Notes under the pieces: generated by a model | Databases searched by the model: none | What the model was told of the DNA's origin: nothing | The model's input: the letters and a program-made list of their open reading frames with translations, nothing else | Made by a program: the position numbers and the translations under genes | In this document: positions 14,849 to 43,356 of the stretch, piece by piece | How positions within the stretch are numbered: position 1 is the stretch's first letter | Layout of the letters: the number at the start of each line of letters is the position of its first letter | Assembly (NCBI RefSeq): GCF_028561275.1 | Contig: NZ_JAQQTF010000002.1 | Span: 900,812 to 964,811 of the forward strand | Length of the DNA: 64,000 nt | From: Aureisphaera galaxeae | Lineage (GTDB): Bacteria > Bacteroidota > Bacteroidia > Flavobacteriales > Flavobacteriaceae | Direction: 5' to 3'

Positions 14849-14866
14849 ATGTAAGCTAGCTTACAT
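14849..14866. promoter_or_regulatory. perfect 18-bp palindromic operator of the ten-repeat surface protein gene
   Basis: ATGTAAGCTAGCTTACAT is its own reverse complement. It ends 20 bases before a TAnnTTTG box (14887) and 52 bases before the ATG, so it covers the -33 region. A near copy sits at the same place before the paralogous gene (19661-19678). The half-site TGTAA-N6-TTACA resembles Crp/Fnr-type sites. Confidence 0.7.
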
Positions 14867-14886
14867 TTTCTGTTTTTGTCGGTTTA

Positions 14887-14894
14887 TAAGTTTG
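14887..14894 (+). promoter_or_regulatory. -7 box of the ten-repeat surface protein gene
   Basis: TAAGTTTG fits TAnnTTTG. There is no good TTG -33 element at the usual spacing; the palindrome occupies that place, which suggests an activator-dependent promoter. Confidence 0.55.
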
Positions 14895-14918
14895 TGGTAT
14901 CAACAAAAAATAAACACG

Positions 14919-17900
14919 ATGAAAGAAAAATTATTTCAAATCAAAACCATAGAAAGAGGATTAGGAGCCTTCCTATTCCTATTTTTTTGGAGTGTTGCCG
15001 TGAACGCCCAATGTTTGGCAGATGCCGCGGCGATTGAAATTACTGGAACCGGGGCTACGGCTGCGGAAATCTGCGCAGGCGATGGCGTAGGGGATCCCAT
15101 AGATGTAACCGTTGTAGGAACCGGAGTGGGTACCAATAGTGGTTGGGTCATTACCGATAACGCTACCGGAACCATCCTTGCTTTACCACCTGCACCTCCT
15201 TTTGACTTAGACGGAGCTGGAGATGGTATTTGCGACATCTGGTACATTCGTTACGAAGATGGATTGACTGGATTGATGACCGGGCAAAATGTTTCTGGTC
15301 TTGCAGGATGCTTCGATCTTTCGAATGCGATTTCAGTAACAAGAAATGATCCCGATGCTGCTGCTATTGAAATTACTGGAACCGGGGCTACGGCTGCGGA
15401 AATCTGTGCTGGGGACGGAATGGGAGACCCTATCGATGTATCCGTAGTAGGAATCGGAGTGGGAGCCAACAGCGGTTGGGTCATTACCGACAACGCTACA
15501 GGAACCATCCTGGCATTACCACCTGCACCGCCTTTTGACTTAGACGGAGCCGGAGATGGCGTTTGTGATATTTGGTACATCCGTTACGAAGATGGTCTCA
15601 CTGGATTAATGACAGGACAGAATGTTTCTGGCCTTATGGGATGCTTCGATCTTTCCAATCCAATTTCGGTAACAAGAAATGATCCCGATGCTGCTGCTAT
15701 TGAAATCACAGGCACAGGAGCAACGGCTATTGATATTTGTGCGGGAGATGGTATAGGAGACCCTATCGATGTAACCGTGGTAGGAACTGGAGTAGGAGCG
15801 AACAGCGGTTGGGTCATTACCGACAACGCCACTGGAACCATTTTGGCTTTACCTCCTTCACCACCTTTTGACTTAGACGGAGCTGGCGATGGAGTTTGTG
15901 ATATTTGGTACATCCGTTACGAAGATGGTCTTACCGGATTAATGACAGGACAGAACGTATCTGGATTGAATGGTTGTTATGACCTTTCTAATCCAATTTC
16001 AGTAACCAGAAACGATCCCGATGCTGCTGCTATTGAAATCACTGGAACGGGAGCCACGGAAATTGAAATCTGTGCTGGTGATGGAGTAGGTGATCCCATC
16101 GACGTGACCGTAGTGGGAACGGGAGTAGGAGCGAACAGTGGTTGGGTAATTACCGACAACGCTACTGGAACCATCCTTGCCTTACCACCTGCGCCACCCT
16201 TCGATTTGGATGGTGCTGGAGATGGTATTTGCGACATCTGGTACATTCGTTATGAGGACGGGTTGACTGGGTTGATGACAGGAGAGAACGTATCTGGATT
16301 GAATGGTTGTTTCGACCTTTCGAATCCAATTTCAGTAACCAGAAATGATCCCGACGCCGCTGCTATTGAAATTACAGGTACAGGAGCTACCGCCATAGAT
16401 ATCTGTGCTGGTGATGGTATAGGTGATCCTATCGACGTAACTGTAGTGGGAACCGGAGTCGGAGCCAACAGTGGTTGGGTCATTACCGATAATGCTACAG
16501 GAACCATCCTTGCTTTACCGCCTGCACCTCCTTTTGATTTAGATGGAGCTGGCGATGGCGTTTGTGACATCTGGTACATCCGTTACGAGGATGGTCTTAC
16601 CGGATTAATGACAGGACAGAACGTTTCTGGATTGAACGGATGCTTCGACCTTTCCAACCCAATTTCGGTAACCAGAAATGATCCTGACGCAGCTGCTATT
16701 GAAATCACTGGAACAGGAGCCACCGAAATTGAGATTTGTGCAGGAGACGGTATTGGCGATCCCATAGACGTAACCGTAGTAGGAGCTGGTGTTGGAGATA
16801 ATAGCGGTTGGGTCATTACCGACAACGCTACTGGAACCATCCTTGCCTTACCACCTGCGCCACCCTTCGATTTAGACGGTGCCGGAGACGGAGTTTGTGA
16901 CATCTGGTATATTCGTTACGCAGATGGACTAACTGGGCTTAGTACAGGTCAGAATGTAGCCGATCTTATGGGATGCTTTGACCTTTCCAACCCAATATCT
17001 GTAACCAGAAACGACCCTGATGCTGCTGCCATAGAAATCACAGGATCTGGTGCCACTTCTATTGATATTTGTGCTGGAGACGGTATAGGAGACCCCATAG
17101 ATGTAACCGTGGTAGGAACTGGAGTAGGAGCCAACAGTGGTTGGGTCATCACCGACAATGCTACGGGAACTATCCTTGCCCTGCCTGCTGCACCACCTTT
17201 CGATTTAGAAGGCGCTGGAGACGGAGTTTGCGACATTTGGTACATTCGCTATGAGGACGGATTAACAGGCTTAAGCACAGGTCAAAATGTGGCCGATCTT
17301 GCAGGTTGTTACGATCTTTCGAATCCGATTAGCGTGAACCGTGAAGGTGTAAGCTCTGCCCCTATTTTCATTACAGGTTCACCTGGAAATACTGAAATTA
17401 CTATCTGTGCCGGTGACGGTATTGATAACCCGATTAATATTACAGTAGATGGTACCGGTATCGGAACCTTTAGCGGTTGGGTGATTACCGACAATGCTAC
17501 GGGTGAAATCCTTGCTTTGCCACCTGCACCACCTTTCAATTTAGACGGTGCGGGACCTGGCGTGTGCGATATCTGGTACATTCGCTACGGAAATGGTCTT
17601 AGTGGACTTGACGTAGGAGCAAACGTCGGGGATTTGGATGGATGTTTCGATCTTTCCAACCCGGTAACCGTAAATAGACTGGGAGTTGATGCCTCAGAAA
17701 TTGAAATCACAGGAACCGGTGCTACAGAAATAGATATCTGTGCTGGTGATGGAATAGATGACCCTATCGATGTAACTGTAATCGGTCCAACTGCAGGGTC
17801 CTTTAACGGTTGGGTGATTACCGACAATGCTACGGGTGAGATACTTGCGTTGCCACCTGCACCACCCTTCAACCTAGAAGGAGCTGGAGATGGAGTGTGC

Positions 17901-18641
17901 GATATTTGGTACATCCGCTACGAATCGGGATTGATAGGACTAAATACAGGAGAAAATGTGGCCGACTTAGTGGGTTGTTTCGATCTTTCCAATCCTATTA
18001 GAGTGAACCGTGAAGGTGTAGATGGAGCTGCGATTCAAATAGCAGGTACTACCGATACTGAAATTAACATCTGTGCTGGCGATGGTGAAGCCGATCCTAT
18101 CGATGTAGAAATTGTCGGCACCAGTGTAGGAGCCAATGGTGGATGGGTAATTACCGATAATGCTACTGGAGAAATCCTTGCATTGCCGGCGGCGCCTCCT
18201 TTCGATTTAGACGGAGCAGGACCTGGTGTATGCGATATCTGGTACATTCGTTATGCAGATGGACTTTCTGGTCTGGAAACAGGAATGAATGTAGCGGATT
18301 TAGATGGTTGTTTCGATTTCTCCAATCCAATTACAGTGAATCGACTTACTGGAGACGATTGTGAAATTCTATCCATTGGTGAGTTCCAAAATACATTCGA
18401 ATTTGCCTTGTTCCCAAATCCAGCTAATAACAGTGTAAGTATTTCCTTCCTTGGAGGACAAAGTGTAAACGCAGAGGTTGGTATTTATGATATTACCGGG
18501 CGCTTGGTTGCACAAAGCGTATTTAACGCACAGGCCGAAGTAAGCTTGGATGTTTCCTCCTTGAACAGTGGAACCTATCTGGTACAGATACAGGATAGCG
18601 AAACAGGAAGTAACACTACCAAACAATTAATAAAGAGATAA
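14919..18641 (+). CDS. large secreted surface protein with ten 111-residue repeats and T9SS sorting domain
   Basis: A 1240-aa exported protein, start ATG 14919. An upstream TTG would precede the leader and spoil the signal peptide. The signal peptide runs to about residue 31 (AVNAQ). Residues 35-1144 are ten tandem repeats of 111 aa each. Every repeat holds ICAGDG, a GWVITDNATG motif, LALPxAPPF, (D/N)L(D/E)GAG, VCDIWYIRY and GCFDLSN-like segments, hence three Cys per repeat. The first seven are nearly identical; repeats 8-10 are diverged. Residues about 1165-1240 (FALFPNPANNSVSISF ... SGTYLVQI ... KQLIKR) form the type A T9SS sorting domain. No enzyme motif is visible. A structural or adhesive surface role is inference. 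Ends in a hairpin like that of its paralogue at 19732. Confidence 0.85.
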   Translation: MKEKLFQIKTIERGLGAFLFLFFWSVAVNAQCLADAAAIEITGTGATAAEICAGDGVGDPIDVTVVGTGVGTNSGWVITDNATGTILALPPAPPFDLDGAGDGICDIWYIRYEDGLTGLMTGQNVSGLAGCFDLSNAISVTRNDPDAAAIEITGTGATAAEICAGDGMGDPIDVSVVGIGVGANSGWVITDNATGTILALPPAPPFDLDGAGDGVCDIWYIRYEDGLTGLMTGQNVSGLMGCFDLSNPISVTRNDPDAAAIEITGTGATAIDICAGDGIGDPIDVTVVGTGVGANSGWVITDNATGTILALPPSPPFDLDGAGDGVCDIWYIRYEDGLTGLMTGQNVSGLNGCYDLSNPISVTRNDPDAAAIEITGTGATEIEICAGDGVGDPIDVTVVGTGVGANSGWVITDNATGTILALPPAPPFDLDGAGDGICDIWYIRYEDGLTGLMTGENVSGLNGCFDLSNPISVTRNDPDAAAIEITGTGATAIDICAGDGIGDPIDVTVVGTGVGANSGWVITDNATGTILALPPAPPFDLDGAGDGVCDIWYIRYEDGLTGLMTGQNVSGLNGCFDLSNPISVTRNDPDAAAIEITGTGATEIEICAGDGIGDPIDVTVVGAGVGDNSGWVITDNATGTILALPPAPPFDLDGAGDGVCDIWYIRYADGLTGLSTGQNVADLMGCFDLSNPISVTRNDPDAAAIEITGSGATSIDICAGDGIGDPIDVTVVGTGVGANSGWVITDNATGTILALPAAPPFDLEGAGDGVCDIWYIRYEDGLTGLSTGQNVADLAGCYDLSNPISVNREGVSSAPIFITGSPGNTEITICAGDGIDNPINITVDGTGIGTFSGWVITDNATGEILALPPAPPFNLDGAGPGVCDIWYIRYGNGLSGLDVGANVGDLDGCFDLSNPVTVNRLGVDASEIEITGTGATEIDICAGDGIDDPIDVTVIGPTAGSFNGWVITDNATGEILALPPAPPFNLEGAGDGVCDIWYIRYESGLIGLNTGENVADLVGCFDLSNPIRVNREGVDGAAIQIAGTTDTEINICAGDGEADPIDVEIVGTSVGANGGWVITDNATGEILALPAAPPFDLDGAGPGVCDIWYIRYADGLSGLETGMNVADLDGCFDFSNPITVNRLTGDDCEILSIGEFQNTFEFALFPNPANNSVSISFLGGQSVNAEVGIYDITGRLVAQSVFNAQAEVSLDVSSLNSGTYLVQIQDSETGSNTTKQLIKR
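15021..18350 (+). repeat. ten direct tandem repeats of 333 bp within a surface-protein gene
   Basis: Copies begin at 15021, 15354, 15687 and so on every 333 bp without length change. Copies 1-7 differ by scattered, mostly silent changes; copies 8-10 differ at many codons. Long antisense open frames here are a by-product of the repeat. Confidence 0.95.
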
Positions 18642-18678
18642 TAGATAAATAAGGACTTTTTGTTAGTTACGTTGTCCG

Positions 18679-18712
18679 AAAGGGGTAAAGCCTTAGTGCT
18701 TTGCCCCTTTTA
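18679..18712 (+). terminator. Rho-independent terminator of the ten-repeat protein gene
   Basis: AAAGGGGTAAAGC pairs (one G-T) with GCTTTGCCCCTTT, then T. The preceding sequence (GTTACGTTGTCCGAAA) is also found before the terminator of the paralogue at 21608. Confidence 0.8.
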
Positions 18713-18729
18713 CATAGTATGAATTGCGT

Positions 18730-19587
18730 ATGAAGTTTCCTGATTATTTTAGCAAAAATCCCAAGTTCAACGTTTTGGAAGGAAGGGCTGGAAAGGTGAT
18801 CGAGTATTTTCACCAACTGGATTCGGTAAAGGATATTCTTCTGAATATAGAACAGTTATTCTTTTTATATGTCATAGAAGGCGTGGTGAAGCTGCAGTCC
18901 CCAGAAGGCATTTTTTATGTTACTGAAGGGCATTCTGCTATTGTTAATAAAGGTCCTTATGTGATGTCCGAAAGCCTATCGGGTTTAAATAGTCAGTTTA
19001 AGGCCTATATAGTTTTTCTTTCGGAAGATGTGCTCGAGGAGTTCTACATGAACCACACTCCTAAAGATTTAGAAGGGGATATTGAAGCCAAGAAGGTTCT
19101 TTTATTAGAGCACGCCTCTTTCTTGAAACCTTTTGTGAACAGCATTTCGCTTATTTTCAATGAATATTCGAAAAGTCAGAATTATAAAGACCTTATCGAT
19201 ATAAAATCTAAGGAATTATTGCATTATCTATCCCTCAATGACTTTCAGGGAAAGGTGTACCATATGCTTAAGCCAGTGGTTTCTGACGAGACTTATCAAA
19301 TACGACAAGTAGTTTCCAAGAACTATCTCAACAATTTGAGCATGGAGGAATGGGCATTTTTATGCCATATGAGCATTTCTACCTTTAAAAGAAAATTCAA
19401 GCATATTTATGGGGAAACCCCTGCTCGCTGGATTAAGGATAAGCGTTTGGAATATGCAGAAAAACTGCTGAAGAACGGAAAATACAAAATACATCAAGTG
19501 GCCAATAAAAGTGGTTTCGAGAATCCAGCGACCTTCAGAAATCAATTCTTCAAAAAGTATGGCGTACTCCCCAATGAATATCGCTAA
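18730..19587 (+). CDS. AraC-family transcriptional regulator
   Basis: A 285-aa cytoplasmic regulator. The N-terminal part (about 1-180) is a cupin-like sensing domain (FLYVIEGVVKLQSPEGIFYVTEGHSAIVNKG). The C-terminal 100 residues are the double helix-turn-helix: NNLSMEEWAFLCHMSISTFKRKFKHIYG, then the linker ARWIKDKRLEYAEKLL and VANKSGFENPATFRNQFFKKYG. The start is ATG 18730; a TTG two codons earlier is possible. It lies alone between two paralogous T9SS surface-protein genes that share an upstream palindrome. A regulatory link to them is plausible but unproven, since AraC sites are more often direct repeats. Its ligand is unknown. Confidence 0.9.
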   Translation: MKFPDYFSKNPKFNVLEGRAGKVIEYFHQLDSVKDILLNIEQLFFLYVIEGVVKLQSPEGIFYVTEGHSAIVNKGPYVMSESLSGLNSQFKAYIVFLSEDVLEEFYMNHTPKDLEGDIEAKKVLLLEHASFLKPFVNSISLIFNEYSKSQNYKDLIDIKSKELLHYLSLNDFQGKVYHMLKPVVSDETYQIRQVVSKNYLNNLSMEEWAFLCHMSISTFKRKFKHIYGETPARWIKDKRLEYAEKLLKNGKYKIHQVANKSGFENPATFRNQFFKKYGVLPNEYR

Positions 19588-19660
19588 CATCACCCTTTGA
19601 ACTTTTTTGAACCTTCGTTGAACCTTATCTGTTCTTACTTAACAAGCTGTTAACTAGCTA

Positions 19661-19678
19661 ATGTAAAGCAGCTTACAT
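19661..19678. promoter_or_regulatory. palindromic operator of the second surface-protein gene
   Basis: ATGTAAAGCAGCTTACAT, 16 of 18 positions symmetric. It lies 20 bases before a TAnnTTTG box (19699) and 53 bases before the ATG, matching the site at 14849-14866. The flanking CATTT(T)CTGTTTTT is also shared. Confidence 0.7.
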
Positions 19679-19698
19679 TTCTGTTTTTCAGCCACCAA

Positions 19699-19706
19699 TA
19701 CTTTTG
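19699..19706 (+). promoter_or_regulatory. -7 box of the second surface-protein gene
   Basis: TACTTTTG fits TAnnTTTG, with the operator in the -33 position. Confidence 0.55.
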
Positions 19707-19731
19707 GGGTATTAATTAAAAAATAGAAAAA

Positions 19732-21576
19732 ATGAAAAAGAAATTATTTGTTCAAAATGTAAACCGTCATTGGTTTGTATCATTTACCTTGCTTTTTATG
19801 GCAATGGGGGCTTTTGCCCAAACGGGGGCTAGGATTACCGAGGTGATTCCCAATACCGATCAGGTGACCCTAACAAATTTTAATGCCAGTCCACTAGATG
19901 TGTCTCCCTATTGGCTTTGTCTAGGACCTGGAGCCTATGCCAATGTAGGTGCCCTTAATGGCGGAAGTGCTACTATTCCTGCGGGAGGTACGTTGCAACT
20001 TACCTTTAATGTAGATCCTGTTGCCGATGGTCTTAGCTTATTCTCAACCAATAACTTTAGTTCCTCAGATCCCGATATTTTATTGGATTTTGTACAATGG
20101 GGAGGACCCAATCAGCCAAGATCTGGACAAGCCGTTACGGCAGGTAGATGGGACGATGCAAGCGACTTCATTAATTGTCCAGCTCCTTATGCTACTTCCA
20201 CCGGAGGATCGGTAGAAGCATGGATTTCCTCGATTGTCTATGCGCCCAATATATCGTTCGATGGAGGTGAAACTTCGGTGAGTATTTGTGTAGATGGCAA
20301 TGCGGATCCGTTGAATGTAAATCGCGATCCTGGTGCCGTGGGAACCAATGCGGGTTGGATCATTACCGATCAGACCACTGGCCAAATCTTAGGCTTGCCG
20401 GCAGCGCCTCCTTTCAATTTGGATGGAGCAGGTGTTGGAGTTTGTGATATCTGGTACATTCGTTATGAAGATGGTCTTAGCGGTAATATGGTAGGGCAGA
20501 ACATTGCCGATTTAGAAGGATGTTTCGATTTGTCCAATGCCATTGAAGTAATTCGCGAAGAAGCCGATGGAGGAAGCGTGGAAATCGACATTGCAGCTAC
20601 TGGGAACCCTAATGGAACCACTTCCATCTCTGCCGATGGATTGGAAGCCGTGATCTGTGTAGACGGGCGTATGGATCCACTCGTTGTATCCCACGTGACT
20701 ACAGCAGAGAACTTAACGTTCCGTTATGTGGTAACCGATGACAGTGATGACAACATCATCCTTGCGATCATGAACACCAGTTCCATCGATCTAGATGGTG
20801 CCGGTATCGGTACCTGTCGCATCTGGGGTTGGTCGTATAGAGGCCTAAACCAAGATGATTTTATAGGATTGCCATTGGCCGATTTACAGGCTGAGGACTG
20901 TTCGGATATTTCGGATATTGCCATAGATGTGATCCGTGAAGAACCCGATGGAGGTTCGGTAAGTCTGGCAAACGGTGATACCTCCGTGTCTATTTGTGCT
21001 GGAGATGGTTCGCCCGATCCACTTTCGGTAACCCATACCACAAATGCCGCAAATCTTACCTTTAGATATGTAATTACCGATAGTGATGCCAACAATACCA
21101 TTCTTGCCTTTTCCGGCAGTTCCGAAATAGATTTGGATGGTGCAGGTCCAGGAACATGTCGTATTTGGGGATGGAGTTATAGAGGATTGAATCAGGATGA
21201 TTTTGTTGGCTTGCCCCTTGCAGATCTTCAAGCAGAAGATTGTAGCGATATTTCCGACGATTTTATTGAAGTGATTCGTCTCACAGGCGACGATTGTGAG
21301 ATTCTTTCTATAGACTCGTTCGAGAATGCTTTCGAATTTGCCTTATTCCCAAATCCAGCCAATAATAACGTAAGCATTTCCTTCTTGGGAGGACAAACAA
21401 TAAATGCTCAGGTAACCGTATATGATATTACAGGTCGATTGGTGAGTCAAGCTGAATTCAGTACGCAAACTGAAGTGAACTTGGATCTTTCCTCCCTGAA
21501 TAGCGGAACCTATATCGTTCAAATTGAAGATAACGAGACAGGTAGTAACACTACGAAGCAACTGATAAAGAGGTAA
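19732..21576 (+). CDS. secreted surface protein, paralogue of the ten-repeat protein, with lamin-tail-like N-terminus and T9SS sorting domain
   Basis: A 614-aa exported protein. The signal peptide covers residues 1-30 (GAFAQ). Residues about 32-160 resemble a lamin-tail domain (ARITEVIPNTDQVTLTNFNA, PAGGTLQL, DFVQWGG). Residues about 180-280 hold one repeat of the same class as the neighbour at 14919 (GWIITDQTTG, VCDIWYIRYEDG, GCFDLSN). Residues about 280-515 hold two variant repeats in which the end reads TCRIWGWSYRGLNQDDF. The last 80 residues are a T9SS sorting domain almost identical to that of the 14919 protein. The same operator, promoter spacing and terminator point to duplication of a whole transcription unit. 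Function unknown. Confidence 0.83.
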   Translation: MKKKLFVQNVNRHWFVSFTLLFMAMGAFAQTGARITEVIPNTDQVTLTNFNASPLDVSPYWLCLGPGAYANVGALNGGSATIPAGGTLQLTFNVDPVADGLSLFSTNNFSSSDPDILLDFVQWGGPNQPRSGQAVTAGRWDDASDFINCPAPYATSTGGSVEAWISSIVYAPNISFDGGETSVSICVDGNADPLNVNRDPGAVGTNAGWIITDQTTGQILGLPAAPPFNLDGAGVGVCDIWYIRYEDGLSGNMVGQNIADLEGCFDLSNAIEVIREEADGGSVEIDIAATGNPNGTTSISADGLEAVICVDGRMDPLVVSHVTTAENLTFRYVVTDDSDDNIILAIMNTSSIDLDGAGIGTCRIWGWSYRGLNQDDFIGLPLADLQAEDCSDISDIAIDVIREEPDGGSVSLANGDTSVSICAGDGSPDPLSVTHTTNAANLTFRYVITDSDANNTILAFSGSSEIDLDGAGPGTCRIWGWSYRGLNQDDFVGLPLADLQAEDCSDISDDFIEVIRLTGDDCEILSIDSFENAFEFALFPNPANNNVSISFLGGQTINAQVTVYDITGRLVSQAEFSTQTEVNLDLSSLNSGTYIVQIEDNETGSNTTKQLIKR

Positions 21577-42816: not shown

Positions 42817-43356
42817 ATGAACAATCTAGAATACATATTGAGTCTCGATCCCTATGCCAAAACAAAACAGTTTAAAAAAGGCGAAATTATTCAACGGGAA
42901 GGAGACATCAATGCCTCCACTCACTACGTAAAGAAAGGTCTGCTAAGGAGCTATACTATAGACAGTAAAGGGAAGGAGCACATTTTTATGTTTGCTCCAG
43001 AAGAATGGATCGTGGCCGATATCGAATCCCAGGAATTCAATAAACCTGTGGAGTTGTATATCGATTGTTTGGAAGACTCTGAAGTGATCGTTTTCGACAA
43101 GGATTGTTTTTTCAAAGGAGATTTGTCCAAAGAAGAAATTCATAAAAACACCGTGCTTTTGTATCGAAGAATGGCAGTGCTACAACGTAGGGTCCTCATG
43201 TTGATGAGTTCCCCTGCCATAGACCGATATGAATACTTCTTGAAAACCTATCCTAATTTACCGCATCGCATTCCACAACACATGATCGCTACCTACTTAG
43301 GAATTACTCCCCAGGCCCTGAGTACGATACGAGGAAAAATAGCGAAGCCCAATTAG
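42817..43356 (+). CDS. Crp/Fnr-family transcriptional regulator
   Basis: 179 aa. The N-terminal cyclic-nucleotide-binding-like beta-roll (about 10-110) has FKKGEIIQREGDINASTHYV and GLLRSYTIDSKGKEHIFMF. It lacks the cAMP-binding Arg-Ser pair of CRP as far as can be seen. The dimer helix lies at about 115-140 and the C-terminal HTH is short (RIPQHMIATYLGITPQALSTIRGKI, core MIATYLGITPQALSTIRG). This compact type is common in flavobacteria; ligands are usually unknown. It is followed by pirin and DUF5996 genes in the same direction, 74 bp away. Confidence 0.88.
   Translation: MNNLEYILSLDPYAKTKQFKKGEIIQREGDINASTHYVKKGLLRSYTIDSKGKEHIFMFAPEEWIVADIESQEFNKPVELYIDCLEDSEVIVFDKDCFFKGDLSKEEIHKNTVLLYRRMAVLQRRVLMLMSSPAIDRYEYFLKTYPNLPHRIPQHMIATYLGITPQALSTIRGKIAKPN

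Follow-up and report, generated by a model that had tools for sequence, protein, structure and literature searches.

Two surface-protein genes and the palindrome before them

We analyzed a 64,000-nucleotide stretch of the genome of Aureisphaera galaxeae ("the window"; contig NZ_JAQQTF010000002.1, positions 900,812 to 964,811), and in particular a palindromic site before two of its surface-protein genes. We consider this site to be a candidate operator for a Crp/Fnr-family regulator, which we call CrpX. Surface protein gene 1 (14919..18641, + strand) encodes a protein of 1240 amino acids (P2) with ten repeats of 111-112 amino acids and a sorting domain (type A) for the type IX secretion system (T9SS). 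Surface protein gene 2 (19732..21576, + strand) encodes a protein of 614 amino acids (P1) with related repeats and a T9SS sorting domain. The first-pass annotation of this DNA had described the two genes as paralogs, and P1 and P2 are indeed 50.6% identical over 436 residues, the best-aligned part of the shorter protein. Both have Por_Secre_tail (PF18962) at the C terminus (55.4 and 59.1 bits; the cut-off is 27) and match TIGR04183 (52 and 57.1 bits; the cut-off is 23), which identifies them as type A cargo of the T9SS. The genes gldB and gldC precede surface gene 1. (Within gene 1, at 14919-18641, neighboring repeats are 65-85% identical at the DNA level, and opposite most of the repeats there is an open reading frame of about 90-109 amino acids, in the same register.) Between the two surface genes is an AraC-type regulator (18730..19587, + strand), with ExsA_N and HTH_18 domains, as had been claimed.

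Operator 1, ATGTAAGCTAGCTTACAT (14849..14866, + strand), is a perfect palindrome. Operator 2, ATGTAAAGCAGCTTACAT (19661..19678, + strand), differs from it at 3 of 18 positions and is palindromic in its outer six bases. Each is followed, after exactly 20 bases, by the start of a -7 box: TAAGTTTG for gene 1 (14887..14894, + strand) and TACTTTTG for gene 2 (19699..19706, + strand). The start codons are 52 and 53 bases from the palindromes (ATG at 14919 and 19732, respectively), so the coordinates agree with the spacings that were first reported. Allowing up to three mismatches, these two are the only matches to the palindrome in the window, versus 0.03 expected in shuffled sequences.

The sigma-A box TAnnTTTG of Flavobacterium psychrophilum is located from -12 to -5 (PMC9723704). 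If this rule is applied to the window, transcription would start near 14899 and near 19711. Given a box at -12 to -5 and a gap of 20 bp, the palindrome spans -50 to -33 and is centered at -41.5. We found no TTG at the assumed -38 to -27 in either promoter, which supports the claim that the palindrome takes the place of a missing -33 element. At class II promoters, a Crp protein is centered at -41.5 and overlaps the upstream promoter element.

CrpX and its probable site across the Flavobacteriaceae

We use "composite" for the palindrome, spacer, and TAnnTTTG box together. In the A. galaxeae genome (G000; our handles for genomes, contigs, and loci begin with G, C, and L), the strict composite ATGTAAN6TTACAT-N17-23-TAnnTTTG has two matches and the relaxed composite TGTNAN6TNACA-N19-23-TAnnTTTG has three, while neither control has any. 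Two of the three are at the surface genes. The other is directly 3' of crpX and ahead of a lipoprotein gene: ATGTCAACTAGCTGACAT begins at the last base of the crpX stop codon, 20 bp before TAATTTTG. Because this third composite is outside the window, it could not be seen from the window alone. In three relatives (G008, G190, and G152), the site has a full-length Crp/Fnr gene on one side and, on the other, a gene for a lipoprotein with an RskA_C domain; we named this regulator CrpX. The A. galaxeae crpX (G000:C11:342597-343262, outside the window) encodes 222 amino acids that are 83% identical to the copy from G152.

The site and CrpX go together across the family. With a threshold of E <= 1e-40, CrpX is present in 84 of 299 family genomes. 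A stringent composite has 73 matches in 67 of these 299 genomes, versus 1 match for the control, and it is found in 67 of the 84 genomes with CrpX and in 0 of the 215 genomes without it (Fisher p about 4e-51, ignoring relatedness). Of 236 genera, 71 have CrpX and 57 have the composite. We also examined 88 crpX genes individually (85 from the 84 genomes, one of which has two, and 3 from extra genomes of the genus). At 76 of these 88, the site with its box at 20 bp adjoins crpX, and its consensus is RTGTTAGCTAGCTAACATTTTA, RTGTTAGCTAGCTAACAT. If perfect TAnnTTTG boxes are sought at any gap from 0 to 44 bp after the site, then 72 of 72 are at a gap of 20 bp, which is the spacing that centers the operator at -41.5. 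A TTG is missing from -38 to -27 in 72 of the 76 CrpX-linked promoters. Together with the absence of a -33 element, this fixed spacing suggests activation through contact with the polymerase. (At L165, in G338:C25, the crpX frame has one internal stop and the adjacent site is intact.)

The site is also conserved before orthologs of the window's genes. Two orthologous promoters, which we reached through the AraC gene and not through the motif, have it with a gap of 20 (G003:C41 and G006:C250), and searching with the motif added three more (G003:C71, G006:C136, and G008:C51). Across six genomes of the genus, the relaxed composite has 12 matches, versus 4 for the control. Eleven of the 12 either precede a surface-repeat gene or directly follow crpX. 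The twelfth (G001:C3) precedes a gene of 243 amino acids with no Pfam match, and we could not connect it to the regulon.

Nine of the 73 stringent composites are not beside crpX, and all nine are in genomes that have CrpX (8 genomes). They include the window's two as well as sites before surface-repeat genes in G306, G241, and G017. The site in G241 also lies right after gldB- and gldC-like genes. In G010 the site is ahead of the crpX-linked lipoprotein gene, which in this genome lies 10.8 kb from crpX; here the site moved together with its target gene. In G265 it precedes a small lipoprotein gene, and in G188 and G143 it precedes a DUF547 gene (the Pfam match is from the G143 copy). These last two genomes are from two genera, and in both of them (G188:C1:517387 and G143:C10:284038) two further genes come after the DUF547-type gene in the same orientation.

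When 84,980 species genomes were scanned for the window's variant of the site, 18 stretches were obtained; records near A. galaxeae were possibly left out. Twelve are new contigs, and six repeat G003, G006, G008 (two), G143, and G152. The targets are surface-repeat genes (7; for L229, the target was read from the same contig in L078), the lipoprotein family (5), a DUF547 gene (1), a YHS-domain gene beside another Crp (2: L230 and L235), and unrelated or intragenic contexts (3: L222, L227, and L233). In Tenacibaculum skagerrakense, T. agarivorans, two uncultured Tenacibaculum records, and G004, crpX, the site, and a repeat-containing surface lipoprotein gene are contiguous.

By its domains and fold, CrpX belongs to the Crp/Fnr superfamily. 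The A. galaxeae protein has an N-terminal cNMP_binding domain (PF00027; 57 bits, with a cut-off of 27.5; the G152 ortholog has 61.1 bits) and a C-terminal winged helix (HTH_Crp_2, PF13545; 41.4 bits, with a cut-off of 27), and the Crp fold covers its entire chain. By profile and structure comparison it is closest to NtcA and to mycobacterial CRP, and its best matches in PDB are NtcA/CRP. Our AlphaFold2 model was built from 86 sequences (predicted local distance difference test, pLDDT, 81.6; predicted TM-score, pTM, 0.58). (A version from 10 sequences, with a pLDDT of 49.6, was discarded as poor.)

In the model, residues 193-205 form a helix, and the aligned recognition helices read TSRPTLNS in CrpX, STRVTVTR in NtcA, and ASRETVNK in mycobacterial CRP. 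(The CrpX alignment holds 86 of the 88 sequences.) R193 is invariant in 86/86 aligned sequences, and a proline replaces the glutamate of CRP in 81/88. In Crp-DNA complexes, the arginine reads the G of TGT and the glutamate reads the base pair after it. The loss of the glutamate would therefore suit an operator with TGTnA rather than TGTGA. In the nucleotide pocket, G81, E82, and R91 do not vary among the 86 aligned sequences, so the ligand of CrpX may be a cyclic nucleotide. Three loci (L106, L127, and L172) have a CrpX-type palindrome upstream of crpX as well, which could mean autoregulation.

Covariation is seen at pair 5/14 of the operator (the fourth base of TGTnA), which takes T-A, A-T, and C-G forms. 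The pair is complementary in 68 of 76 sites, versus 58.7 in shuffles (0 of 10,000 shuffles were as high, ignoring relatedness). Residue 198 of CrpX, which is Asn in A. galaxeae and mostly Ile, Val, Ser, or Ala in relatives, ranked first of 222 residues for association with this base, in a plain post hoc ranking. It is Ile or Val with 59 of 62 T-A operators and with 2 of 13 others. We rejected this as evidence for covariation in specificity: on a tree of the 76 sites less L165 (which has the internal stop), there are 4 changes and 1 supported independent pair, which is not significant.

What binds the palindrome?

Since the site accompanies CrpX, at one promoter distance, in many relatives, the palindrome is most likely the binding site of CrpX. 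We think it very likely that the two palindromes in the window are CrpX operators and that CrpX activates these genes for exported surface proteins in the class II manner. A CrpX dimer would bind TGTnA-N6-TnACA, centered at -41.5 and in place of the -33 element, and the bound CrpX would recruit RNA polymerase to the TAnnTTTG box. The predicted regulon in A. galaxeae has three promoters: those of the lipoprotein gene 3' of crpX and of the two surface-protein genes in the window. We infer the binding from co-occurrence and adjacency, and we infer activation, rather than repression, from the promoter's sequence and geometry.

Several observations weigh against this account or limit it. By our criteria, twelve of the 88 crpX genes lack an adjacent site. 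One of these is at a contig end (L084) and one has a degenerate site (L091), which leaves ten (L114, L157, L159, L166, L167, L168, L172, L175, L176, and L180); three of those ten genomes have a composite elsewhere (G265, G017, and G010). G003, which is 88% complete, has two sites, and CrpX was not found in it. The two-domain arrangement of CrpX is uncertain in the model (pTM 0.58), as the rmsd (root-mean-square deviation) of about 7 Å shows. The link to residue 198 comes from about one clade. As for the palindrome by itself, a genome-wide scan had been proposed. Only the composite is special, with two or three matches versus none in the controls; the palindrome without its box shows no enrichment. 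Allowing up to one mismatch, ATGTAAN6TTACAT occurs at 20 places in the A. galaxeae genome, versus 32 for the reversed control. Of 15 of these places, 12 are inside open reading frames of at least 100 amino acids, and, except for the two in the window, none has a box at a distance of 17-23 bp. We therefore rejected the bare palindrome as the mark of a genome-wide regulon. Finally, the sequence alone would also fit a repressor at this position.

The last point leads to the alternatives. CrpX could repress these promoters, or the palindrome could be the repressor site of another factor; a protein bound over -33 would block the polymerase too. But the TTG is missing from -38 to -27 at 72 of 76 promoters, and a single spacing (72/72) is needed for polymerase contact and not for a block. 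We consider repression improbable. We give slightly less credit to the proposal that the AraC/ExsA_N regulator is the activator and that the palindrome is its site. This regulator is placed between both targets, and it is retained there in G003 (83% identity) and G006 (about 60%). Nevertheless, the flanking stretches that we fetched for the sites at G008:C51, G241:C9, G306:C7, G017:C21, and four Tenacibaculum loci contain no AraC match, so the site does not need AraC. A close AraC relative is present in just 3 of the 99 genomes searched, including A. galaxeae (in the 23 other genomes with a match, identity is 25-31%), whereas the site is beside crpX at 76 of 88 crpX loci. AraC sites are usually direct repeats, and the symmetric TGTnA-N6-TnACA is instead a Crp form. 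Given this lack of co-occurrence in the stretches and genomes covered, we rejected AraC as the owner of the site.

The first-pass annotation had proposed a shared activator of the Crp/Fnr type and had named two proteins from the window, encoded at 42817 and 55292, as candidates. A shared activator of this type is supported, but the named candidates are not. Both proteins have a cNMP_binding domain, and they are only 179 and 177 amino acids long, with no helix-turn-helix match above the Pfam cut-off (for 55292, there is a sub-threshold match of 15.6 bits). The window has no third site, the Crp gene that accompanies the site is neither of these two, and the site follows CrpX across the 299 genomes. 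In favor of another Crp paralog, in Mesonia algae (L230) and in a Cytophagales metagenome-assembled genome (L235) a related site, TGTAAAATAGCTTACA, lies next to the gene of a Crp with about 30% identity to CrpX, so cross-talk is possible. In both, the order is the Crp gene, TGTAAAATAGCTTACA, 20 bp, the box, and a gene of 154 amino acids. (The YHS domain of that gene and the domains of the Crp were tested in L230.) Overall, it is very unlikely that the short Crp-like proteins or another Crp paralog bind the window's sites. The similarity of the two promoters might instead be just a relic of the duplication, without any role in regulation. The genes are paralogous and their promoters can be aligned outside of the palindrome too, so duplication probably accounts for part of their similarity. 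Yet the same site with the same spacing precedes unrelated genes (the RskA_C lipoprotein gene and the DUF547 gene) and occurs in 57 genera, and we give a relic almost no credence. Class II activation by CrpX is our preferred explanation.

Related systems, genomic setting, and significance

CrpX resembles known regulators in some respects. It shares with E. coli CRP at class II promoters the TGTnA-N6-TnACA geometry, centered at -41.5 over the upstream element. Unlike for CRP, the n of the CrpX operator is T, A, or C and not G, and the promoter has a TAnnTTTG box. The A. galaxeae CrpX is far below the NCBIfam equivalog cut-offs for cAMP-CRP (NF008732; 55.9 bits versus 266) and for NtcA, the cyanobacterial nitrogen regulator of the Crp/Fnr family (TIGR03697; 74.9 bits versus 244.95). 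NtcA also has different targets, and it has Arg where residue 198 of the A. galaxeae CrpX is Asn.

Other Crp proteins in the family seem to use similar sites. In 397 family genomes, the strict composite has 24 matches in 21 genomes, versus 2 for the control, and part of these belong to a second class, ATGTAAC-N4-GTTACAT (11 of the 24: L055, L056, L058, L060, L061, L062, L064, L065, L067, L070, and L075). This class has the geometry of the CrpX site, with a 20-bp gap in 8 of 11, but its inner core is AAC...GTT, not AGC...GCT, and it goes with another Crp protein and other targets. In L055 and L064 it is flanked by a TauE gene and by the gene of a different Crp, and in L067 it precedes a sulfur-transport gene. 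It is probably another Crp/Fnr regulon of the same geometry, so two or more Crp regulators of the family seem to share this promoter layout.

In A. galaxeae, crpX is followed by the lipoprotein gene and a thioredoxin-like gene, and then, on the opposite strand, by genes for lycopene cyclase, a CrtZ-like protein (without a Pfam match and assigned by eye), phytoene synthase, a CrtI-like oxidoreductase, and a MerR-type regulator that has a B12-binding domain. Similarly, in Thermus thermophilus, the Crp/Fnr regulator of the LdrP/LitR system is near a B12-binding MerR and carotenoid genes, judging by titles cited in PMC7064467 and PMC6739363. CrpX is not an equivalog of LdrP by the NCBIfam cut-off, and its targets differ: the G152 ortholog has 20.8 bits on NF052518 (the cut-off is 300), the A. 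galaxeae CrpX has no match at E 0.01, and none of the three A. galaxeae composites precedes a crt gene. Since crpX adjoins a LitR/CarH-like MerR and carotenoid genes, CrpX could conceivably act at the output end of a module that senses light or redox state and, via the class II operator, switch a repeat coat displayed by the T9SS with light or oxidative stress. We view this as speculative and rather unlikely, and the link to light is a lead. A light transcriptome of Chryseobacterium lacus includes a light-induced lipocalin-type lipoprotein beside its crt cluster (PMC7064467), but we have no grounds for identifying it with the CrpX-linked lipoprotein.

Literature searches that joined Crp with flavobacteria, Bacteroidetes regulons, carotenoids, and Tenacibaculum brought up nothing that describes a CrpX regulon. 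A 12-base part of the motif turned up once each in papers on malaria, Staphylococcus reporters, and wheat, which we take to be chance, and spelled-out Crp-type forms appeared in a paper on Rex of Thermoanaerobacterium. By these searches, the proposed CrpX regulon is new; the kind of regulator is already known.

To our knowledge, few activator operators have been defined in Flavobacteriaceae. Here, a predicted operator is described at base-pair resolution together with its probable regulator, promoter geometry, and targets, in 57 of 236 sampled genera. This provides a testable model of class II activation on an unusual TAnnTTTG promoter, and it would tie a regulator to large repeat proteins that are displayed through the type IX secretion system.

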